Source of the DNA: Nostoc sp. PCC 7107 | GTDB lineage: Bacteria > Cyanobacteriota > Cyanobacteriia > Cyanobacteriales > Nostocaceae | Length of the DNA stretch: 64,000 nt | Direction of reading: 5' to 3' | Assembly (NCBI RefSeq): GCF_000316625.1 | Contig: NC_019676.1 | Coordinates: 2,033,001-2,097,000 of the forward strand | Shown: positions 8,209 to 23,150 of the stretch, piece by piece | Layout of the letters: each line of letters starts with the position of its first letter | How positions within the stretch are numbered: position 1 is the stretch's first letter | Notes under the pieces: model-generated | Databases searched by the model: none | Told to the model about the DNA's origin: nothing | The model's input: only the letters and a program-made list of their open reading frames with translations | Program-made: the position numbers and the translations under genes

Positions 8209-8332
8209 GTTCTAGAATAACGTAGAGCATATTTTTTGTTATCTTCAGCCGATCAAAAATTTGCTCTACGGATAAATCTAAGTTAATTTTTTGGAGTATG
8301 GGTGCGATCGCAAATGAAGCTTGCAGAGTCAT
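8198..8332 (-). CDS. 44-residue ORF coupled to eCIS cargo protein 1
   Basis: A short ORF whose ATG overlaps the stop codon of the preceding DUF4157 gene (TAATG), the arrangement expected for translational coupling. It contains the stretch LDLSVEQIFDRLKI. A related stretch, ITLSVEQVFSWLKM, follows the second DUF4157 gene, at 10178-10345. Its 3' end overlaps the end of the carboxypeptidase gene by 11 bp on the other strand. It may be a small partner protein or the C-terminal remnant of a larger gene; the motif resembles the C-terminus of Uma2/DUF820 proteins. I cannot assign a function. Confidence 0.35.
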   Translation of the reverse strand: MTLQASFAIAPILQKINLDLSVEQIFDRLKITKNMLYVILEPNL

Positions 8333-10053
8333 TAATTCTCATTACCAGCCCATATCAACAGTTTTCTGCCAAAAACATATTTACCATACCAATCTTTTTC
8401 GTTCTTTACTACCTTTTTCAGAGTTTGGAATTTTTCTTGTTGACTTTCATCATTTTTTGTCTCTTCTTGCAATTGTAAAGCTCTCTCAAGAACTTGCTTG
8501 ATTGATTCTTCCATCGGATCATGTTTACCACTTGTGTAATCTTGGTTTTCTTCTAGCTTTTCCCAATCATGGCCACCCTTCATCTTTGGCAAAGCAGTAA
8601 CTTGTTGGATGAGTCCATCTACATTTTTATTTCCCTCTTTCCTATGAATTATGTCAACACTTTCACTAACTCTGACAAGATCACCTGTCTCAGAATTACC
8701 GCCAATTCTGATCTGCTGTAGTCCGCTGGCAAAATTAATAGTCACTGGTTTACTTTCAAGATGTTTAACAACATCTTTGGGAGTATCTTTTAACTGACCT
8801 TTCGACCCAACTCCGGCAGAAGCTATGTAAGCATTTATGTTCCCAACGATATTACCAATCTGAGTCGTCATATCGTTTATCATGCCATCGATCACACCCT
8901 TAATATCATTATTTGCATCTATGTGTGTCAGAGCATATATCGTTTCACCATCCGCGTTACTAGCAGACATAGCCAATCCAGTGCAAGTTGCGGCTCCTGT
9001 TGTCACCAACCCATTGATTTCATTGAAGCTTTTTGTGACATGATAATAGCTTTGAGGCACAATGATATCATTAGCCATTACGTTTTTATCATTGTTACTC
9101 AACTTATTTTCCGCCTTGGCTGCTATTTCACAGTCTGCTTTAAACTGCTCTAGCGTTACTTGCTCTTTATAGTCCTCATAGTCTTTATATCCTTGAATTA
9201 TTACCGTCCTCTCAATAGCTTGTTGGACGAAACGCCACATTCTTTTATATTGCTTTGCAACCTCACCTTCCTCATCATCCGTAATTCTTTGAATTTGTTT
9301 TTCGGCTCTGCTAACAGATAATATTTCTGCATCTGCTGATTTTTGGACTTTTCCTGAACCAGTTTGCTGCACTACATGAGTCAATTCATGGGCAATTAAT
9401 TCCTGTCCGCCTCTACTTCCAGGATCATAAGTTCCTTGGCGAAAGAAAATATCTCGACCTGTTGTAAACGCTTTCGCCTGAATTGATTGATTCATTTGGT
9501 CAGACTGAGCATCTGTATGAATTTTGACACCACTAAAATCAGCACCGAAAGCTTGTTCCATTGGCTGTTTGATAGTCTCTGCTAGTGACTGTCCGCCGCC
9601 TTTTGATCTTTGAATAGAAGCTTCTAAATCTGGTGTTGCACTAGTTTCGTCTGCATTTGATAGCCGTTGTATGAGAGATTTTTTTCTCAGTTCTTCTTCT
9701 GGTTGTAACTGTGGCTGTACTGGTGGAGTTTCTGGTGAATTTATTCGTTCCACCACATCCGCGGCTAGTCTGTCAGCTTCTTGCTCATATTTATCCCCTG
9801 GTTCACCAATACTAAGTTTCATCTGGATTCTTGGTGCTGGTGGCGGTTGATAGCCAGGGGGAAAAAGTGGGATATTGGCGAAGTTGTTCCCAGATGTTTC
9901 AGTGCTGGTTGATTTAGCTTGTAAATCTGCTGGTGATTGTTCTGATTCTTCAGTTTGCGGCTGGATGACAAAGCGACGGGGTGCAAATTGATTTGCTGGT
10001 ACATCAGAGTGATTTGCAGGAGTTTTCCCTGTTCTGTGTTGTCGCTTATACAT
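8332..10053 (-). CDS. eCIS-core DUF4157 protein with putative toxin C-terminus (cargo 1)
   Basis: Protein of 573 residues with the layout of cargo carried by contractile injection systems. The start shows the conserved leader MYKRQ..NQFAPRRF.IQPQ, followed by a low-complexity Pro/Gln/Glu linker. About residues 110-235 form the DUF4157 (eCIS core) domain, with KYEQEADRLA and GADFSGVKIHTD stretches and a HELTH metal-site motif at 222-226. The C-terminal 330 residues have no obvious close relative. They contain a Cys357 (ATCTGLAM) and His377 (ALTHID) pair whose spacing recalls CheD/CNF1-type deamidases; this is inference only. The start was moved to 10053, where an AGGAG box precedes the ATG. 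It is the last large gene of the minus-strand eCIS arm and shares its first third with the neighbouring cargo 2. Confidence 0.8.
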   Translation of the reverse strand: MYKRQHRTGKTPANHSDVPANQFAPRRFVIQPQTEESEQSPADLQAKSTSTETSGNNFANIPLFPPGYQPPPAPRIQMKLSIGEPGDKYEQEADRLAADVVERINSPETPPVQPQLQPEEELRKKSLIQRLSNADETSATPDLEASIQRSKGGGQSLAETIKQPMEQAFGADFSGVKIHTDAQSDQMNQSIQAKAFTTGRDIFFRQGTYDPGSRGGQELIAHELTHVVQQTGSGKVQKSADAEILSVSRAEKQIQRITDDEEGEVAKQYKRMWRFVQQAIERTVIIQGYKDYEDYKEQVTLEQFKADCEIAAKAENKLSNNDKNVMANDIIVPQSYYHVTKSFNEINGLVTTGAATCTGLAMSASNADGETIYALTHIDANNDIKGVIDGMINDMTTQIGNIVGNINAYIASAGVGSKGQLKDTPKDVVKHLESKPVTINFASGLQQIRIGGNSETGDLVRVSESVDIIHRKEGNKNVDGLIQQVTALPKMKGGHDWEKLEENQDYTSGKHDPMEESIKQVLERALQLQEETKNDESQQEKFQTLKKVVKNEKDWYGKYVFGRKLLIWAGNEN

Positions 10054-10177
10054 TTTTCTCCTCAAGATATTTTTGTGCCAGCAAAAAACCTGCCGTAGTT
10101 TTGCGACAGAGGTATTGTAAAATTTTGGCACTATCTTACTGAAGATTAATGGCGATCGCCACAATCAATACTATTGT

Positions 10178-10388: not shown

Positions 10389-11564
10389 TTATGAGCTTGC
10401 AGTTTTTCGACACCATCCCTCTAGCATCTGTTCCTTTTTGAATGTCTGCACTGAGCGAAATACTGCACCTCCACCCTTTCCTTGTTCTGCTTCCGTTTTC
10501 AAATGTCCGCAGATCAATTGTGAGTCATTCTTATCACTTTCAAAGTGAAAATGAGCATACCATGCGTCAAAATAAATACTTTTATTAGGATTTTTAAATC
10601 CCGTAAATTCGATTCGATACGAATCTAAGAAGTTATTCTTGTCTAGTTTTTTCCTTGTCTGTGTTTGGATAACTCGGTTTACTTGACCATCTAAACTCAA
10701 AGTTTTTAAAGTATCAATGCCTGGTGTCTTTTGTTTTAGCTTGTCCCATCTCTCCTGATTTTCCTTGTCAATTTTATTTTGCCGCTTTTTGTCCAGATCA
10801 TTTTGCAATTCTTTAGCACCACTCTTAACTAAAATGGCATCCATTTCCTGTGCTGAATAAAATGTTTTAGCTTCCTGAAATTCCTCAAGCTTTTTGAAAG
10901 CTTTGATCATCCGCTTCATCATTTCTAAAGTTTCGCAATATGGCTCTAAATGCTGGGTTTTTACCGTTTCTAATTCATCTTTACTTGTTTGCCAATTGGT
11001 CTTTAATAGTGTATCAATTGTATCTTGATCAAAAAGTTTGATCTTCATCGTTTGAACTACCATTCTCTGAGCCGAAAAGGAAGAAAACGATTCTTGACCC
11101 AATACACCTATACCGTTCTGCTGCACTACATGGGTTAATTCATGGGCTAGTAACTCTTGTCCACCCTGGCTCCCTGGGTCGTATTCACCCTGGCGAAAGA
11201 AAACATCTCGCCCTGTTGTAAAGGCTCTCGCTTGAAGGGATTGATTCAATTGGTCAGACTGGGAATCAGAATGAATCCGCACACCACTAAAATCAGCGCC
11301 AAATGCCTGTTCCATTGGTTGTCGGATGCTTTCTGTTAGTGGCTGTCCGCTACTTCTGGCTTGTTGTATCGACTCTTCTAAATCAGGTGTTGCAGTCATT
11401 CCCCCTGCACTAGACAAACGTTGCACTATGGGTTTCATTTGCAGTTTGTCTTCATCTTCAGGCATTTCTTGGCGTTGAATATTACCTGAGATTGATTTCA
11501 TTTGCAGTTCGTCTTCATCGCCTGTTGATTCCTGACGCTGAACTTTATTCACTCTCAGGTGCAT
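10389..11564 (-). CDS. eCIS-core DUF4157 protein, C-terminal part (cargo 2, split)
   Basis: The larger piece of a second DUF4157 cargo gene. It carries two QRQE..(D/E)LQMK repeats, the DUF4157 core with GADFSGVRIHSD and HELTH, and a C-terminal domain unrelated to that of cargo 1. That domain is Lys/Glu-rich and helical, then ends in a possible beta domain with AWYAHFHFES and LICGHLKTE. No toxin family could be recognised. The first in-frame ATG (11564) overlaps the upstream piece by 20 bp in a different frame, and no good ribosome binding site precedes it. Removing one T in GAATAAAG near 11545 would join both pieces seamlessly as ..PESEKVQRQE.., matching the layout of cargo 1. The gene is therefore probably frameshifted, or the base is an assembly error. 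Confidence 0.7.
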   Translation of the reverse strand: MHLRVNKVQRQESTGDEDELQMKSISGNIQRQEMPEDEDKLQMKPIVQRLSSAGGMTATPDLEESIQQARSSGQPLTESIRQPMEQAFGADFSGVRIHSDSQSDQLNQSLQARAFTTGRDVFFRQGEYDPGSQGGQELLAHELTHVVQQNGIGVLGQESFSSFSAQRMVVQTMKIKLFDQDTIDTLLKTNWQTSKDELETVKTQHLEPYCETLEMMKRMIKAFKKLEEFQEAKTFYSAQEMDAILVKSGAKELQNDLDKKRQNKIDKENQERWDKLKQKTPGIDTLKTLSLDGQVNRVIQTQTRKKLDKNNFLDSYRIEFTGFKNPNKSIYFDAWYAHFHFESDKNDSQLICGHLKTEAEQGKGGGAVFRSVQTFKKEQMLEGWCRKTASS

Positions 11565-11998: not shown

Positions 11999-13966
11999 TC
12001 AAACCCAGCCTTTCACTTCAGCATCTGTCAATTGTCGTTCTAATTTGGTGTACTCACTTTTAGCTGCTTGTAAAAGATGTTTCATCTCTACCGCGTCTCC
12101 GCTATCGGCTGCTAAAAAGGCGGCGTTGAGAGCGATGTTGCGAATATTACCGCCCGATACATTTAACTTGGCTAATTTACTCGCATCTAAATCTTGAGTA
12201 GGTGTTTGACGTGGAAAGACACGTTGCCAAATCTCGGTGCGCTGGGTGATATCGGGGAAGGGAAACTGGACGACAAACCTAATCCGACGCAGAAATGCTT
12301 GATCTAAGGAAGCTTTTAAGTTGGTGGTGAGAATTGCTAAACCCCGGTAAGATTCCATCCGTTGGAGTAAGTAGCCTACTTCAATATTGGCATGGCGATC
12401 GTGGCTGTCTTTTACTTCGCTACGTTTACCAAATAAAGCATCGGCTTCATCAAATAATAAAATTGCCCCGCCGGCTTCGGCTGCATCAAATACCCGCCGC
12501 AAGTTTTTCTCGGTTTCACCAATGTATTTACTCACCACTTGGCTTAAATCTATGCGGTATAAATCTAGACGCAATTCATGGGCAATTACTTCTGCGGCCA
12601 TTGTCTTACCAGTACCACTAGCACCTGCAAATAAGGCACTAATACCTAAACCACGCCCACCTTTGTTGCCAAATCCCCATTTTTCATAAACTTTCGTCCG
12701 TTGGCGCACATGGGCAGTAATATCACGTAATACTTGGCGTTGTGCTTCTGGTAATACTAAATCATCCCAAGTTGCACTAGTTTCCATTGGTTGGGCTAAT
12801 TCATCCAGACGAGATCGCGCTTGAAAACGGCAAGTATCCCATAAAAGAGTGCTGAGTTCTTCTACTTCTTTGGCCTTTTGACTTTTGACTTTTAACTTGC
12901 CTTTGGCTTCTGCACAAACTGTTTGAATAGTAGAGGCGTTGAGGCTGAAGTGGGAAACTAGTTTATCTACATGGCCATTGAGACTAGTGGCTGCTTCGCC
13001 TAAAGTATTTTGCCAGATGATCTGTTGTTCTGTGATGTTGGGTTTATGAACGTCGATCGCAATTAGGGAACGTTGGAGCGATCGCTTTCTTTCCAAGCTA
13101 GTAATAATTAAGGGACTAGTAATACTCGTTATCAAACGCGCGATCGCATTTTCTTTGGCTGGCTCTGTATAATCTACTTCATCACAATCTAATAGCAAGA
13201 CGCTATTGTTGAGCATTGATTCTCTTTCCCACAGGCGTAGCAAGTCGTTCATTTCGTTCTGACGCAAATTAGTAATTGCCCCAGCCGACATTTGATGTAA
13301 ATTGAGATTTAGCAACTTGCAAGCTGTGGATGCGATCGCTTTTTTGCTGGCGATTTCATCTCCACATAACTGGATAATTGGTAATGCTGTTTGTGTTTCG
13401 ATCCAAGTTGTGGCTAATTGTTCGACTAACTGCTGATGAGATGGGACAATTTCGCTATCAGGGATTACCACAGGTTGCACAATACTTTGTAATCTTTCAT
13501 CTACGTGATTCAAGCCCAGCAAATAATGCAAAATCCGTTCATCAACTCGCAAATGACTCAGATTCAGGACAGAACCTTCACTAATTTGGATTAACTGCCA
13601 CTTTCGCAACGGTGCAGTTGGTATCAAAGCATTGCAGTGAGGTTGCGGTAAGCTGGCTTTGGCTAACATAAAGGTTGGGTAGGGTTTTCCTAAACTACCT
13701 TGAGCATTGGCACATAAAATACCCCAGTTAGCATCTAATTCCATACCAACGCAGAGTAACAAAATGTGACTCTCAAATTCTGATAAACCAAAAATTTGAC
13801 AGAGAGTGTGAAGGGCTGGCGGGGAAAGGTTGGGAAAATGAGGATTGCGGTTTTCTTTAGGTTCTTCAGCTAGTAAAGCCTGGCGAACTATATTTAGTGC
13901 ATTGATTAAGTAATCATAGTTGGCTGATTGCCATTCATAGTTCTGAGTTAATAATTTATTTTCCAT
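11999..13966 (-). CDS. AAA+ ATPase of the contractile injection system (Pvc15/Afp15-like)
   Basis: AAA+ protein of 655 residues. The N-terminal 370 residues contain a poorly conserved region found in eCIS ATPases. The C-terminal AAA+ module has Walker A GASGTGKT near residue 447, Walker B ILLFDEADALFGKR near 500, sensor 1 ILTTN and an arginine-finger-type FLRRIRF. Pvc15/Afp15 relatives are required for assembly or cargo handling; the exact step is not settled. It lies between the DUF4255 gene (75 bp upstream) and the cargo genes on the same strand, consistent with one operon. A heptamer-repeat insertion within the coding sequence (12880-12908) adds a charged KGKLKVKSQKAKE stretch without breaking the frame. 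Confidence 0.88.
   Translation of the reverse strand: MENKLLTQNYEWQSANYDYLINALNIVRQALLAEEPKENRNPHFPNLSPPALHTLCQIFGLSEFESHILLLCVGMELDANWGILCANAQGSLGKPYPTFMLAKASLPQPHCNALIPTAPLRKWQLIQISEGSVLNLSHLRVDERILHYLLGLNHVDERLQSIVQPVVIPDSEIVPSHQQLVEQLATTWIETQTALPIIQLCGDEIASKKAIASTACKLLNLNLHQMSAGAITNLRQNEMNDLLRLWERESMLNNSVLLLDCDEVDYTEPAKENAIARLITSITSPLIITSLERKRSLQRSLIAIDVHKPNITEQQIIWQNTLGEAATSLNGHVDKLVSHFSLNASTIQTVCAEAKGKLKVKSQKAKEVEELSTLLWDTCRFQARSRLDELAQPMETSATWDDLVLPEAQRQVLRDITAHVRQRTKVYEKWGFGNKGGRGLGISALFAGASGTGKTMAAEVIAHELRLDLYRIDLSQVVSKYIGETEKNLRRVFDAAEAGGAILLFDEADALFGKRSEVKDSHDRHANIEVGYLLQRMESYRGLAILTTNLKASLDQAFLRRIRFVVQFPFPDITQRTEIWQRVFPRQTPTQDLDASKLAKLNVSGGNIRNIALNAAFLAADSGDAVEMKHLLQAAKSEYTKLERQLTDAEVKGWV
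12880..12908. repeat. In-frame heptamer repeats inside the ATPase gene
   Basis: The sequence ccttttgacttttgacttt plus nearby variants is a short run of TTTTGAC-type heptamers. It resembles the short tandemly repeated repetitive (STRR) sequences known from heterocystous cyanobacteria, here lying within codons of the AAA+ gene. The corresponding T-rich repeats occur outside genes at 16355-16382 and 20444-20471. Confidence 0.55.
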
Positions 13967-18605: not shown

Positions 18606-20276
18606 ATGCCAAGATTAGATTATTTTGCACCTGGTGTCTACGTTGAAGAAGTAGACCGAGGTAGTCGCCCAATAGAAGGGGTGAGTACAAATATCGCTGG
18701 TTTTATCGGGTTTACAGAAGATGTCCGTGGTGATGCGGAATTATTTAAACCGATGCTAGTGACATCGTGGAACGAGTATCTAGAATATTATGCTAAACAA
18801 GGTTCGGACGGCTTCACCGATTTTGATGCCTATTTACCCTTTGCGGTGAATGGTTGGTTTCTCAACGGTGGTGGACGTTGTTGGGTAGCTAGTATCGGCA
18901 CAAAACTTCCTGGTTCTCAGCCACCACCAGCAGAAGAAACAGCTTTAAAACTGCGTACTACTGGCAACCGCCCATCTTTAAGCTTTGCTTTGAAGCCTGC
19001 TGAAGATGACGATAATAGCGGTGCAGAAGGCAGAATTAATGTTTCTGTCACCGAAAGTCAACCGCGTCCACCAGAAAGTCCAGAAGCTGAACCACCTGCA
19101 AATACTGGTGAATTTTTCAAAGTTATTATTAGCCGCAATGGGGAAATTCTGGAAGAATACGACAATCTTTCCATGAACCCTCAAGTTGAAGCGCCGCTAG
19201 GTGCTTATGCGGTGACAGCTTTGCAAGAGTCGCAGTTTGTGACTGTTGCTGACTTAGAAACACCAGGACAACCGCTGTCGCGTCGTCCTGCAAATGGTAC
19301 TTACGAAGTTAGTCCACCGCCATTAGTTTCGACTCCTGACCGTTTCCCCAGAGATGTGCAAGGTGTCCGGGACGATCGCACCGGGATGCAAGGTATCTTT
19401 GAAATTGACGAAGTTACCATGATTGCTTTCCCTGACTTGATGCGGGCTTATCAAAACGGCATCTTGGATTTGGATCAGGTTCACGGCATCATGGAAGCAA
19501 TGGTCAGTATGTGTGAAAATACTGCTCCTAACCGGATGGTAGTATTAGACCCACCGCCGTGTAAAGGTGGTGGTGCGCCTGTACCTCCTACCCAGGTGAA
19601 GCCCCAGCATATTGCTCAGTGGTTGAGTGCATTTAATCGGCGATCGCAATTTGCCGCCCTCTACTATCCTTGGATTAAAGTCCCCAACCCCCGTAACGGT
19701 GGTAGACCGATTTTGATTCCTCCCGCTGGTCACATGTTGGGTGTTTGGTGTCGGACTGATGAAACCAGAGGGGTTTATAAAGCACCTGCTAACGATACAC
19801 CCAGAGGTGTAATTGGTTTAGCCTACGAAACCAACCTGCGTGAGCAAGAACTACTCAACCCCTTGGGTATCAACTGTATTCGTACCTTCCCCAACCGTGG
19901 TATCCGCATTTGGGGCGCTCGCACTTTGGTAGAACCAGATAACTTACAGTGGCGTTATATCAGCGTCCGTCGCTTGATGAGTTATATCGAGAAGTCCGTA
20001 GAACTCGGTACTCAGTGGGTAGTATTTGAACCCAACGACCAAGATTTATGGGCGCGTGTTACCCGCACCGTCAGCAATTTCTTAGAAAGACTGTGGCGCG
20101 AAGGTGCTTTGTTTGGTGCTTCGGCTGCGGAGGCTTTTTACGTCAAATGTGACGCGAGTATCAACACCCACGAAACCATGATGTTGGGTCGGTTGTATAT
20201 CGAAGTTGGTGTTTGTCCTGTACGTCCGGCGGAATTTGTCATCTTCCGCTTTAGTCAATGGTCGCCTAACCAATAA
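18606..20276 (+). CDS. Contractile sheath protein of the injection system
   Basis: Sheath protein of 556 residues in the phage tail sheath/Pvc2-4 family. It polymerises around the tube and contracts to drive it outward. The conserved N-terminal strand FAPGVYVEEVDRGSRPIEGV and the ..TNIAGFIGFT segment are clear. The C-terminal half has the catalytic-free sheath core with RGVIGLAYETN, GINCIRTFPNRGIRIWGART and RRLMSYIEKSV, and ends in the beta-strand used for subunit hand-shaking. Residues about 100-260 form a Pro/Glu-rich insertion typical of surface sheath domains. An AGGA box precedes the ATG. Only one sheath gene is present, whereas Photorhabdus PVC loci carry three. Confidence 0.95.
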   Translation: MPRLDYFAPGVYVEEVDRGSRPIEGVSTNIAGFIGFTEDVRGDAELFKPMLVTSWNEYLEYYAKQGSDGFTDFDAYLPFAVNGWFLNGGGRCWVASIGTKLPGSQPPPAEETALKLRTTGNRPSLSFALKPAEDDDNSGAEGRINVSVTESQPRPPESPEAEPPANTGEFFKVIISRNGEILEEYDNLSMNPQVEAPLGAYAVTALQESQFVTVADLETPGQPLSRRPANGTYEVSPPPLVSTPDRFPRDVQGVRDDRTGMQGIFEIDEVTMIAFPDLMRAYQNGILDLDQVHGIMEAMVSMCENTAPNRMVVLDPPPCKGGGAPVPPTQVKPQHIAQWLSAFNRRSQFAALYYPWIKVPNPRNGGRPILIPPAGHMLGVWCRTDETRGVYKAPANDTPRGVIGLAYETNLREQELLNPLGINCIRTFPNRGIRIWGARTLVEPDNLQWRYISVRRLMSYIEKSVELGTQWVVFEPNDQDLWARVTRTVSNFLERLWREGALFGASAAEAFYVKCDASINTHETMMLGRLYIEVGVCPVRPAEFVIFRFSQWSPNQ

Positions 20277-20531: not shown

Positions 20532-21017
20532 ATGCCTGAATTAAAACCAATAGCCGCCAGTAATTTTTACTTTGAAATTGATAGCATGACTGATATGGCT
20601 TTTAGCAAAATCGGTGGTGTTAAATTTGAAGCCAAAGTTCAAGGTCAAGATAAACCTTTAATGTCTACTAAAGGTGGAAATACTGTCAGACAAATTAACT
20701 CTGCTGGGTTTGAAGGACTATTCAATATTGAAGTCACAACTTTAATGAGTGGTGATAGTGATAGCACCAGCAAAAAAATGTATGATTGGTTCAAAAAATG
20801 TATGCCGAAAACTGAAAAAGGTGAAGGCAAATGGGCAGAAGGTAAAAAAACTGGCTCTATAGTTGCCTACGATACTGATGGCAATGAGGTTATGCGTTGG
20901 GACTTAAAAGAAGCTTGGCCTTCTCAATATAAAATTGGAGATTTTGATGTTTCTGGTAACGGCTATGTTGAAGAAACTTACACCCTAACTTGTGAAAATA
21001 TAAATCGTAAAAAATAG
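20532..21017 (+). CDS. Injection-system inner tube protein 1 (gp19/Hcp-like)
   Basis: Protein of 161 residues of the T4 gp19-like tail tube family. The start SNFYFEIDSMTD, a central GLFNIEVTTL strand and the end VSGNGYVEETYTLTCENINRK are typical. Hexameric rings stack to form the lumen through which cargo travels. An AAGGAG ribosome binding site lies before the ATG. It is followed after 56 bp by a second tube paralogue. Three tube-family genes in a row match the usual eCIS set of tube, tube initiator and baseplate adaptor, but which is the main tube cannot be decided from sequence. Confidence 0.88.
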   Translation: MPELKPIAASNFYFEIDSMTDMAFSKIGGVKFEAKVQGQDKPLMSTKGGNTVRQINSAGFEGLFNIEVTTLMSGDSDSTSKKMYDWFKKCMPKTEKGEGKWAEGKKTGSIVAYDTDGNEVMRWDLKEAWPSQYKIGDFDVSGNGYVEETYTLTCENINRKK

Positions 21018-21073
21018 ATTTGCCTATTTTTTCTAGTTAATTAATCATTCCGCAGTTATTTGGAGGTTTGTTT

Positions 21074-21541
21074 ATGGCAGAGTTTGTTTCTAACGCCAAA
21101 TTTTACTTTGAAGCCGATGGGCTGACTGATATTCTGATACAGAAAATCAGCGGTATGCAAATGAAAATGGTCGTAGCTGGTGGAGATGCACCGATTGGTG
21201 TCACCAAAGATGGTAAAACTCAAACCAATGCTACTATCGGTAGCGTAGAATGCTCAGAAATTACTGTTGAATGTGTAGCAACGGCAGATTCTAAACAACT
21301 GCTGGATTGGTACAATAAATGTCATGCAGAAGCTCTTTCTGGTGGTAAAGCTGAAGGTCGTTCAAGCCGTAAATTAGCAAAACTTGCTATCTATGATGGA
21401 GATGGTAACGAAAAAGTTCAGTACGAATTTACAGATATTTTTCCTACTAGCTATGGAACAGGAGATTTCACAGCAGGGAGTGGTGATTTGCTAACAGAAA
21501 CAGTCACCATTGGCTTTACTTATTTTGAACGGAAGAAGTAA
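21074..21541 (+). CDS. Injection-system inner tube protein 2 (gp19/Hcp-like)
   Basis: Protein of 155 residues, paralogous to the preceding gene. It shares the layout NAKFYFEADGLTD at the start, SECSEITVEC.. in the middle and GDLLTETVTIGFTYFERKK at the end. It differs enough to suggest a distinct ring position. The ATG at 21074 is preferred to an upstream TTG because a GGAGG box sits at 21062-21066. A heptamer repeat cluster separates it from the third tube gene. Confidence 0.88.
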   Translation: MAEFVSNAKFYFEADGLTDILIQKISGMQMKMVVAGGDAPIGVTKDGKTQTNATIGSVECSEITVECVATADSKQLLDWYNKCHAEALSGGKAEGRSSRKLAKLAIYDGDGNEKVQYEFTDIFPTSYGTGDFTAGSGDLLTETVTIGFTYFERKK

Positions 21542-21545
21542 GTAG

Positions 21546-21604
21546 AAGTATGAAGTATGAAGTATGAAGTATGTAGACACCCTTTGGGTGGCTTCCCGAA
21601 GGGT
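21546..21604. repeat. AAGTATG heptamer x4 plus adjacent hairpin
   Basis: Four perfect tandem copies of AAGTATG (21546-21573) follow tube gene 2. After them comes an inverted repeat ACCCTT..AAGGGT (21579-21604) of the dispersed Nostocales type. It lies within the operon, so its hairpin could modulate expression between tube genes. Confidence 0.65.
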
Positions 21605-21670
21605 AATTTTATCTTTTATTTTTTAGACTTCATACTTTTCTCTTATCTGAATTTTTATGTAGTAAATATC

Positions 21671-22162
21671 ATGACAGATTTTCCTGAAATTCTGACGAAT
21701 AGCCGTTTTTATCTCGAACTAAAGCTAACTGGTAGTCAAGAACCAGTAGATGGCTATTTTATGGAATGTCAAGGTTTTAAGGTTAATCAGCAAGTAATAG
21801 AAGTTGCCGAAGTTACGCCGCAAACCTGGGGTAAGAAAGGCAATACTAGTGGAAGAGTTATCCGCACAAAAATTCCGGGAAATATATCTTATTCCAATAT
21901 AGTTTTACGTCGTGGTTTAACTATTTCTATGACCATGTGGAATTGGTTAGCTGCTGTGCAAGAAAGTAAATGGGGTGACGAAAAACGTGATGGTTCTTTA
22001 GTAATTTATAATCAAGCTGCTGAAGAAAAATTTAGATTAGCATTTAAAAATGCTTGGCCTGCTAGTTATAAAATTAATGATGTGAATGCAGCTGGTAGCG
22101 AACACGAAATTGAAGAAATAGAAGTAGTTGTAGAAGAATTAAAACGAGTAAAAGTAGCATAG
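21671..22162 (+). CDS. Injection-system tube-family protein 3
   Basis: Protein of 163 residues of the gp19-like tube family, more distant from tube proteins 1 and 2. It has NSRFYLELKLTG, ECQGFKVNQQVIEVAEVTPQ, a basic KIPGNISYSNIVLRRG stretch and the ending EIEEIEVVVEELKRVK. This form, with RRG and WNWL motifs, is typical of the tube-initiator or baseplate-adjacent paralogue (Pvc5/Pvc1-type) in eCIS loci. The ATG at 21671 was chosen because family homology begins there; the frame is open further upstream but that stretch derives from repeats. The stop at 22162 is immediately followed by the next ATG. Confidence 0.87.
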   Translation: MTDFPEILTNSRFYLELKLTGSQEPVDGYFMECQGFKVNQQVIEVAEVTPQTWGKKGNTSGRVIRTKIPGNISYSNIVLRRGLTISMTMWNWLAAVQESKWGDEKRDGSLVIYNQAAEEKFRLAFKNAWPASYKINDVNAAGSEHEIEEIEVVVEELKRVKVA

Positions 22163-22163
22163 A

Positions 22164-22472
22164 ATGTTGCAAACTGATTTTGAATTTACTTTACCGAAAG
22201 GGTATCTAGATGCAGACGGTAATTTACACCGTAAAGGAGTTATGCGTTTATCCAGAGCGATAGATGAAATTGTTCCTTTACGTGACCCCCGCGTAAAATC
22301 AAATCCAGCTTATGCGACGGTGATAATTTTATCTCGCGTGATTACTCATTTAGGTGCATTAGATGAGGTAACACCTGCGGTTGTGGAAAATTTTTTTGCT
22401 TGTGATTTAAGCTATTTACAAAATTTTTATCGCCAAATTAATGAATTAGAAGAACTAGGGAGTGGAGAGTAG
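22164..22472 (+). CDS. Small eCIS tail-assembly-chaperone-like protein A
   Basis: Protein of 102 residues starting 1 bp after the tube 3 stop, so probably translationally coupled. It shares the pattern FTLP+GYLDADGNLH+KGVMRLS.A.DEI with the next gene, so the pair arose by duplication. Position between tube and missing tape-measure genes, small size and helical content suggest a tail assembly chaperone comparable to phage lambda gpG; this is inference. Unlike protein B it lacks a C-terminal zinc-ribbon-like CPQC. Confidence 0.75.
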   Translation: MLQTDFEFTLPKGYLDADGNLHRKGVMRLSRAIDEIVPLRDPRVKSNPAYATVIILSRVITHLGALDEVTPAVVENFFACDLSYLQNFYRQINELEELGSGE

Positions 22473-22493: not shown

Positions 22494-22865
22494 ATGATTA
22501 ATATACAAACAGAATTTAACTTTACCCTACCTAGAGGTTTATTAGATGTAGACGGAAATTTGCATCGCCAAGGTGTGATGCGTCTAGCGACAGCTAAAGA
22601 TGAAATAATTGTGCAGAAAAATCGGGCTGCTCAGGAAAATACAGCTTATGCTGCGATCGCAATGCTATCACAAGTAATCATTTGTTTGGGTGATTTAACA
22701 ATAATAACTCCTGATTTACTAGAAAATCTTTTTTCACGGGATTTGGCATATTTGCGAGAGTTTTATAATCGAATTAATCAGCAAGGTGATGCTGAAATTC
22801 CAGTACAATGTCCCCAATGTCAGACTAATTTTCACGTAGAGTTAGCTTTATCGGGGGAATCATAG
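22494..22865 (+). CDS. Small eCIS tail-assembly-chaperone-like protein B
   Basis: Protein of 123 residues, paralogue of A, with an added C-terminal VQCPQCQTNFHVE segment that could be half of a metal site. A GAGGAAAA ribosome binding site precedes the ATG. Its last codons (TTA TCG GGG GAA TCA TAG) contain five G residues at 22853-22857. The -1 frame from there runs on into a 47-codon DUF6760-like stretch that has no start codon of its own. A programmed -1 frameshift producing a longer fusion, as with lambda gpG-GT, would explain this layout. Confidence 0.78.
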   Translation: MINIQTEFNFTLPRGLLDVDGNLHRQGVMRLATAKDEIIVQKNRAAQENTAYAAIAMLSQVIICLGDLTIITPDLLENLFSRDLAYLREFYNRINQQGDAEIPVQCPQCQTNFHVELALSGES

Positions 22866-23008
22866 GCTACCCCTCAGATTTACTCCATGAGGAGGTAGCC
22901 TGTATTGCGTTTAATTTCCATTGGAGTTTAGCAGAAATTTTAAGTTTAGAGCATTCTGACCGTCAGCATTGGGTTGAAGAAATTAGCAAAATTGTGCAGC
23001 CAGAATAA
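22853..23008 (+). CDS. DUF6760-like short ORF without a canonical start codon
   Basis: Reads GGIIGYPSDLLHEEV then IAFNFHWSLAEIL and LEHSDRQHWVEEISKI, ending at TAA 23006-23008. This matches my recollection of the DUF6760 family found next to small chaperone-like genes in eCIS loci. The frame is open only from 22829 (TAA at 22826-22828), and it contains no ATG, GTG or TTG before the conserved part. Expression would need a -1 frameshift from the upstream gene at the G-run, or initiation at ATC/ATA (22859/22862). Coordinates given start at the proposed slip position. Confidence 0.65.
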   Translation, partial: GGIIGYPSDLLHEEVACIAFNFHWSLAEILSLEHSDRQHWVEEISKIVQPE

Positions 23009-23055: not shown

Positions 23056-23150
23056 GGAAGATGCCCCAATATTGAACTCAGCCTAAATTTATTCTGGTGT
23101 GTCAAATAACTGCTTTCTACAGAGGTTTAGCTGAGTGCTAAACCTTTTTT
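23056..23150 (+). ncRNA. Candidate small RNA unit A
   Basis: A -10 like TACACA (23045-23050) is followed by TATAGGAAGATG, about 60 nt of AT-rich sequence and a strong intrinsic terminator: AGGTTTAGC-tgagt-GCTAAACCT with T6, at 23123-23150. The same order and spacing recur at 23671, 23960 and 24446. It could be the terminator of the tube operon, but the shared upstream promoter-like box argues for a separate transcript. The exact 5' end is estimated. Confidence 0.5.

Follow-up and report, generated by a model that had tools for sequence, protein, structure and literature searches.

Our analysis strongly supports a model in which the chaperone-like gene at 22494-22865 of the window, i.e. the whole stretch of 64,000 nucleotides analysed, ends in a programmed -1 ribosomal frameshift signal through which a chaperone-DUF6760 fusion would be made, a reading to which we assign a probability of about 0.92. 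Such a shift had been proposed as probable in the first-pass annotation and is borne out by a conserved slippery heptamer, its phase, a downstream hairpin, a freeze of synonymous sites and replacements of the run that are themselves slippery. Given these features, together with the spacing of the hairpin and the homologues in which the -1 frame is closed 5' of the run, frameshifting is the best explanation of the locus. The conservation of the signal, the selection acting on it and the translation of DUF6760 are supported by sequence comparison; the slippage itself, the rate at which it occurs and the function of the fusion we infer.

The gene lies in a cluster of the eCIS type, in which sheath, tube and Pvc16-type genes are present (Table 1). 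Matches of the sheath in the PDB include the Afp, Pvc and Anabaena All3325 sheath chains, and the two top chains carry only the name "phage tail sheath". Of the position that had been assumed for the junction, after the tube and before a tape measure gene, the first part was seen, as three tube genes lie upstream. No tape-measure gene was seen 3' of DUF6760 in the window, where a terminator-like hairpin follows and no further + strand ORF of 50 aa or more begins before 25361. The region of this terminator-like hairpin (23096-23148) resembles the Rfam family cyano_het_sRNA (RF02596; 30 bits, gathering threshold 35.7, E 0.0011). Elsewhere in the genome, a fourth tube gene is found outside the window at genome position 1694688-1695080, and the sole spike-type (PF04717) match, at 4306432-4306653, is more than 2 Mb away from the window, which holds the one Phage_sheath_1C match of the genome; as such, the injection-system genes of this genome seem to be dispersed. 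A HELTHVVQQ motif is shared by two proteins of the window (8332-10164 and 10389-11564, minus strand), which by eye resemble DUF4157 proteins and adjoin a gene that, again by eye, is ATPase-like (11999-13966). DUF4157 proteins are described as injection-system cargo in a passage of PMC8894136.

Table 1. Features of the injection-system cluster and of the proposed frameshift site (window coordinates).
Feature	Position	Strand	Evidence or remark
Pvc16_N gene, 183 aa	17983..18534	+	heads the same-strand cluster; PF14065, E 1.6e-21
Tail sheath gene, same cluster	18606..20276	+	PF04984/PF17482
Three gp19-type tail-tube genes	20532-21017, 21068-21541, 21557-22162 (scanned from 21674)	+	PF06841 in each
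Second chaperone-like gene, 102 aa	22164..22472	+	PHROG 508, E 0.0045
Tail-assembly-chaperone homologue, 0 frame, 123 aa	22494..22865	+	TAG stop at 22863-22865
DUF6760 frame (-1), 59 codons stop to stop	22829..23008	+	TAA stop at 23006-23008
Predicted slippery heptamer G_GGG_GAA	22853..22859	+	0 frame xxG GGG GAA
Predicted stimulatory RNA hairpin	22865..22900	+	fold, z-score, covariation, covariance model
Part of the -1 frame that would be used after the shift, DUF6760 domain	22853..23008	+	PF20546, E 1.5e-10
Terminator-like hairpin 3' of DUF6760	23121..23147	+	consensus scan: 2 found, shuffled mean 0.3

The first-pass annotation had taken the upstream gene to be chaperone-like, and its product (13.8 kDa, with a CPxC motif near the C-terminus) indeed matches PHROG 508, a tail assembly chaperone family, with E 4.5e-10. 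Its match to the Pfam family Phage_TAC_7 (PF10109, E 0.0024) is under the Pfam cut-off and, since a PF10109 search of its own genome gave no match at E <= 0.001, the Pfam chaperone label is weak. The chaperone-like gene immediately upstream, at 22164-22472, has neither a slippery run at its end nor a -1 partner and thus provides a natural control; the two paralogues stand in tandem, and the CPxC motif and the slip run are found in the second only. The -1 frame, open from 22829 and overlapping the chaperone by 37 nt, had been thought to encode a conserved-looking protein, and this protein was identified as DUF6760 (PF20546; 41.4 bits, cut-off 27). A codon comparison of homologues, in which the residues of downstream DUF6760 are conserved and its synonymous sites freer, indicates that this frame is translated, and the predicted fusion would comprise 171 aa (19.4 kDa). 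Neither protein had a credible match in a search of solved structures, in a library that also holds the Afp, Pvc and Anabaena sheaths; that the two go without a solved chain although the sheaths are present is what one would expect, as weak evidence, of an assembly factor that does not stay in the particle. The predicted structure of DUF6760 was set aside owing to its low confidence (pLDDT 63).

Homologues were gathered through DUF6760, which was matched in 32 of 386 genomes of the phylum and in 141 of 217 genomes of the family, while a single scan of genome contigs returned 20 loci. The 158 loci analysed are a part of these matches, with 29 taken from each of the phylum and family searches and 79 further loci picked for different genera together with extra copies. 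Eight were dropped as duplicates of the 220-base junction, leaving 150 distinct cyanobacterial loci, of which 143 remained after filtering by spacing, length or N and 71 were non-redundant at 85% identity. Of the 150, 147 could be given a chaperone adjacent to DUF6760, and in 146 of these 147 DUF6760 is in the -1 frame relative to it. The exception, L028, reads +1 and has a chaperone apparently one base short just before the junction, where it seems to be either mutated or misassembled. L046, L138 and L149 are without an assigned chaperone; in the latter two the run and stem are intact, and they are apparently broken or rearranged copies.

In the window, the chaperone gene ends TCG GGG GAA TCA TAG, so that the GGGGG reported for its last codons is seen at 22853-22857. 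Orthologous loci largely keep this run: GGGGGAG (108) and GGGGGAA (36) account for 144 of the 150 cyanobacterial loci, followed by GGAAAAG (3), GGGGGGA (2) and GGGGGT (1), the last only in L046, which lies at a contig end and has a stop in its -1 frame as well. Together, GGGGGAR, GGAAAAG and GGGGGGA make up 149/150, counted with an anchoring pattern that was limited to the listed heptamers and anchored all 150 loci. The phase is equally constant, with the first G of the run in the third codon position of the 0 frame in 146/147; the codon before GGG is any of nine, all ending in G, among the 71 non-redundant loci, and the 0-frame stop follows 2-3 codons on, counted from GGG, in 134/146. With DUF6760 joined to it, the chaperone ORF carries a slip run near its end in 144/147 cases, versus 2/92 for other chaperone-like ORFs of the same loci. 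G_GGG_GAA is not a classical X_XXY_YYZ heptamer with full re-pairing of both tRNAs; both tRNAs can re-pair on the homopolymer heptamer G_GGG_GGA. The -1 frame is open from the run to the stem in 149/150 loci, and in L024, L030 and L154 a TGA closes it immediately before GGG; therefore, a shift in these loci, if any, would occur on the run. About 12 nt upstream of the run, homologues favour GTG GAG codons. A Shine-Dalgarno-like core (GGAG and the like) is present upstream of the run in 42/71 loci versus 13 and 4 in two control stretches, which is suggestive of a further stimulator; we did not count it, as the window has GTAGAG, without the core.

A second set of loci, found through the signal itself as outlined below, contains two further variants of the run, namely TCG GGA AAG CTC TGA, i.e. 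G_GGA_AAG, in L204 and seven G in L209. These replacements bear on the idea that the RNA polymerase slips on the G run and yields mixed mRNAs, for which the homopolymer at the junction would be a natural substrate. However, the GGAAAAG and GGGAAAG loci have no such homopolymer, five G are short for polymerase slippage, and slippage in transcription needs no hairpin over the next codons; we hold it to be extremely improbable.

The frameshift reading is further supported at the codon level. Several codons of the -1 frame are near-fixed relative to their usage, namely GGG (97%, usage 21%), GGA (99%, 31%), TAC (97%, 31%), CCC (87%, 29%), two GAG (89% and 96%, 30%) and GTA (100%, 20%). In a synonymous simulation, which ignores the relatedness of the loci, z ranged from 25.9 to 53.7 at GGG, GGA, GGC, CCC and GTA and from 4.4 to 9.3 at TAC, TCA and the two GAG, versus -0.8 to 0.4 at the loop codons; over the 34 codons after the stem it ranged from -2.1 to 6.6 and was mostly below 4, a bias that is weaker but not nil. 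The freeze is thus strongest at the run and at both stem arms, where it marks a predicted signal in the nucleotides.

The downstream hairpin is predicted to form between the arms GGCTACCCCTCA (22865-22876) and TGAGGAGGTAGCC (22888-22900, with one bulged A), with a stem that reaches 22862-22903, a folding energy of -24.4 kcal/mol and a z-score of -3.6; the gap between run and hairpin is about 5-6 nt here and about 5-8 nt across the homologues. The run-to-stem distance is 13 in 144/150 loci and 16 in the other 6, and z was below -2 in 61/71 loci (-2 or above in 10) versus 2/71 for a downstream and 3/71 for an upstream control. The 71-locus alignment was compared with 500 shuffles, which related sequences can beat without any structure: 88.3% of cells are paired (shuffled mean 85.0) and 46 cells are changed on both sides (shuffled mean 17.3), values that none of the shuffles attained. 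The outer pair of the stem, for instance, is GC in 27 loci, AU in 23, UA in 3 and CG in 1, and is unpaired in 16. Pairs with a double change numbered 6 (4.1 shuffled; 16/500 as high), and further pair types, at 14, showed no excess (13.3 shuffled; 233/500 as high). The covariation score was 0.146 (0/500 shuffles as high) and fell only slightly, to 0.133, when the 3' arm was slid by +1, with paired cells down to 52.3%. RNAalifold alone retained 8 pairs, and its covariation term was small (-0.34). No known + strand element was found at the hairpin in Rfam, and a mir-199 match on the minus strand (E 0.72) was taken as chance.

The 3' arm of the stem contains a Shine-Dalgarno-like AGGAGGT (22890-22896) that is largely conserved, its least conserved position being kept in 58/71 loci. 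Since it lies 7 nt before an ATT (22904-22906) that is shared by 47/71 loci, translation of DUF6760 might start at this codon, with the hairpin as an on/off switch. The remaining 24 loci have another codon at this position, however (ATC 8, CTT 5, CTG 4, GTT 4, ATA 2, TTG 1), and an isoleucine or leucine there fits a conserved stretch resembling P2 E'. Initiation at the ATT would also leave unexplained the run, its phase and why the -1 frame contains no stop between run and stem (149/150), and in light of the codon variation we disfavour it as barely credible.

A covariance model of the proposed frameshift signal (model R1) recovered the window site with E 2.5e-16, the next best site in the genome having E 0.8, and matched 54 of 194 genomes of the class. 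The second set consists of 38 loci from the 58 matches listed, of which 34 are new and four (L189, L190, L196 and L198) repeat loci of the first set. DUF6760 was present in 36/38, and 35/38 also had a chaperone with DUF6760 in -1; for the new loci only, the figures are 32/34 and 31/34. The runs of this set are not independent evidence because its loci were found by the signal itself. L207 and L208, both weak matches to the model, are without DUF6760. L206, a second match in its genome (G568), has only four G at the run, lacks the conserved tryptophans and looks like a degraded copy of DUF6760.

Beyond these loci, a tblastn search of plasmid sequences found 35 records, of which 19 were analysed, one per strain or species (the other 16 are further S. 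clavuligerus and S. cattleyicolor records). GGGGG or GGGGGG is present in the same frame in 18 of the 19, from five bacterial phyla (10 Actinomycetota, 4 Cyanobacteriota, 2 Pseudomonadota, 1 Bacillota and 1 Spirochaetota). The exception is a plasmid of Haloferax larsenii (L171:2474-2743), where an archaeal DUF6760 has an ATGA overlap but lacks the G run; judging from its sequence, this lineage may make DUF6760 as a separate protein. Model R1 matched the Paraburkholderia, Rhodococcus, Paenibacillus and Treponema sites (E 5e-13 to 1e-5), reached only E 0.004-0.6 for Kitasatospora, Embleya, S. cadmiisoli, WZ-12, Rhizobium and NBC_01324, and found no match at the S. clavuligerus, YIM 121038, S. 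cattleyicolor, BHT-5-2 and Haloferax sites. The cyanobacterial hairpin is thus largely not kept in actinomycete loci. By energies alone, S. cattleyicolor and NBC_01324 are predicted to form another stem in this position (-33.7 and -24.7 kcal/mol), and the folds of YIM 121038 and WZ-12 are weak (-11.8 and -7.6 kcal/mol). The 3' neighbour of the plasmid loci varies between a 2.3-3.3 kb gene, a tube gene and other genes. In the ten actinomycete loci the codon overlapping the stop is GTG or ATG in six, CTG in two and neither in two; therefore, coupled initiation may also act in the loci with GTG or ATG.

The -1 frame of the window had been described as free of ATG, GTG and TTG, which is correct for ATG and TTG, but a sole GTG is present at 22994-22996, four codons before the stop and useless as a start. 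Among the homologues, none of the three codons occurs from the opening of the -1 frame to the stem in 104/150 loci; a start codon is found solely upstream of the run in 29/150, and an ATG or GTG at or after it, near the stop, in 17/150. Of the three loci whose -1 frame is closed before GGG, two (L024 and L154) carry a GTG two codons further on, and L030 has no standard start there. The first-pass annotation had named initiation at ATC or ATA as the competing explanation, which we disfavour given that neither codon is conserved in the 71 loci: the ATC position is occupied by GTA (22), GTC (21), ATC (9) and seven other codons, and the ATA position by ATA (20) and 18 other codons.

A broader form of this alternative is termination-reinitiation, whereby a separate DUF6760 would be started at or near the chaperone stop, at an ATGA or GTGA overlap or at ATC, ATA or GTA, with GGGGGA or the proximity of the stop helping. 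Homologues with an ordinary start, which had been named as evidence against a frameshift, do exist (17/150 cyanobacterial loci, with the ATG or GTG at or just after the run, 6/10 actinomycete loci and Haloferax, whose ATGA comes without a run), but the run persists in all of them except Haloferax. Streptomyces DUF6760 is annotated from the codon overlapping the stop, and ATA is the commonest codon at its position in the window (20/71). Yet the candidate start codons differ widely across the 71 loci, no standard start precedes the stem in 104/150, and Kitasatospora and S. cadmiisoli keep the run although CTG stands at this point. Furthermore, the replacements GGAAAAG and GGGAAAG are slippery but not Shine-Dalgarno-like, and reinitiation leaves the spacing of the hairpin and the length of five G unexplained. 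Overall, we regard termination-reinitiation as very unlikely, if less remote than polymerase slippage or a start at the ATT.

Under the frameshift reading, most ribosomes would terminate at TAG and release the 123-residue chaperone. A minority, hindered by the hairpin ahead while tRNA-Gly occupies GGG in the P site, would slip back by one base at G_GGG_GAA; GGG then re-pairs perfectly with GGG, and the Glu tRNA can exchange GAA for GGA at the cost of a single G:U pair. The slipped ribosomes would read on into DUF6760 and yield the 171-residue fusion at a fixed minor ratio. By analogy with lambda gpG/gpGT and P2 gpE/gpE+E', we expect that the chaperone part coats a tape-measure protein, that the DUF6760 part recruits tube subunits and that neither the chaperone nor the fusion stays in the finished injector.

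In all likelihood, the locus represents a new occurrence of a known phage mechanism, placed in a cellular injection system and equipped with a conserved signal of its own. It is also rather probable, although with clearly less confidence than we place in the locus itself, that programmed -1 frameshifting is general in bacterial contractile injection systems with DUF6760, with G_GGG_GAR and a hairpin in at least five phyla; that a chaperone:fusion ratio set by the ribosome is built into the assembly or length control of the injector; that DUF6760 is the diverged counterpart of P2 E'; and that standard annotation either overlooks it or assigns it a wrong start. If so, a classic phage recoding switch would be at work inside a cellular machine, common in cyanobacteria and present in actinomycetes too, whose relatives are under development for protein delivery. 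The fusion would then be a missing assembly factor, invisible in structures of the finished particle, DUF6760 would gain a function and its dropped or mis-started annotation an explanation, and the length and yield of injectors would depend on a frameshift rate that is directly measurable.

In the open-access literature searched (subscription papers and preprints lie outside it), the text available held no report of such a frameshift in contractile injection systems, eCIS or tailocins, nor one on DUF6760. The main text of PMC8894136, on the Anabaena injection system, contains neither 'frameshift' nor 'chaperone', the part of PMC13222765 at hand merely cites the title of a T4 chaperone paper and has no such frameshift, and no such report was found in the accessible portions of PMC8528098, PMC5411513, PMC8718954 and PMC12998442. 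A relative of DUF6760 was found neither in the phage collection at E <= 0.1 nor in one scan of viral contigs, and a phage origin by sequence was set aside accordingly.

Downstream stimulatory structures are common, though not universal, at the frameshift sites of phage tail assembly chaperones. At the same spot as the slippery run, L204 carries G_GGA_AAG, which we take to be lambda's own heptamer. According to passages of the review PMC5009743, G_GGA_AAG is highly shift-prone in E. coli, and lambda makes a chaperone, gpG, and a minor -1 fusion, gpGT, as proposed here; gpG associates with the tape measure, gpGT recruits tube subunits in addition, and the mature virion contains neither. Unlike our locus, the lambda pair belongs to a siphophage. 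A shift of 7% is given for a phage tail assembly chaperone cluster in a passage of PMC3711429. The heptamer GGGGGAA of the window is identical to that of SEA-PHAGES chaperone genes; as stated in parts of PMC10274946, every one of 'the thousand' fivetwo motifs of those data has this sequence, and the Glu tRNA re-pairs with GGA via a G:U pair, the same argument as ours, those sites being predicted ones in phage genes. The predicted fold of the chaperone (pLDDT 78.7) resembles, in a Foldseek comparison with viral predictions, T4-like baseplate hub assembly proteins (E 1.4e-4) and Mu FS-gp41 (E 0.13) as well as a phage tape measure chaperone, with modest query-normalised TM-scores of about 0.5, and a fold search of the PDB gave no match at E <= 0.001.

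The closest relative of the proposed switch is gpE/gpE+E' of phage P2 (PF10109 and PF06528), made by a -1 frameshift. In the P2 record, sheath and tube are followed by E, by E+E' through an annotated -1 site, and by T; of this contractile-tail operon, the order from sheath and tube to chaperone and overlapping -1 frame is common to our locus. In a single hhalign comparison, the E' part is remotely like DUF6760 (probability 89.8, E 1.8e-6), with an FHW..W pattern, and the Treponema copy of DUF6760 matches both PF20546 (27.2 bits, cut-off 27) and, below its cut-off, PF06528 (17 bits, cut-off 23). The window protein falls short of Phage_P2_GpE (PF06528; no match at E <= 0.01), and for this reason we did not file it under that family. 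P2 slips on T6G, and the 64-base stretch after its site folds with -15.6 kcal/mol (energy alone), whereas our locus has G_GGG_GAR and a conserved hairpin. In addition, unlike P2, it is a chromosomal injection system rather than a virus, and its chaperone carries a C-terminal CPxC motif.
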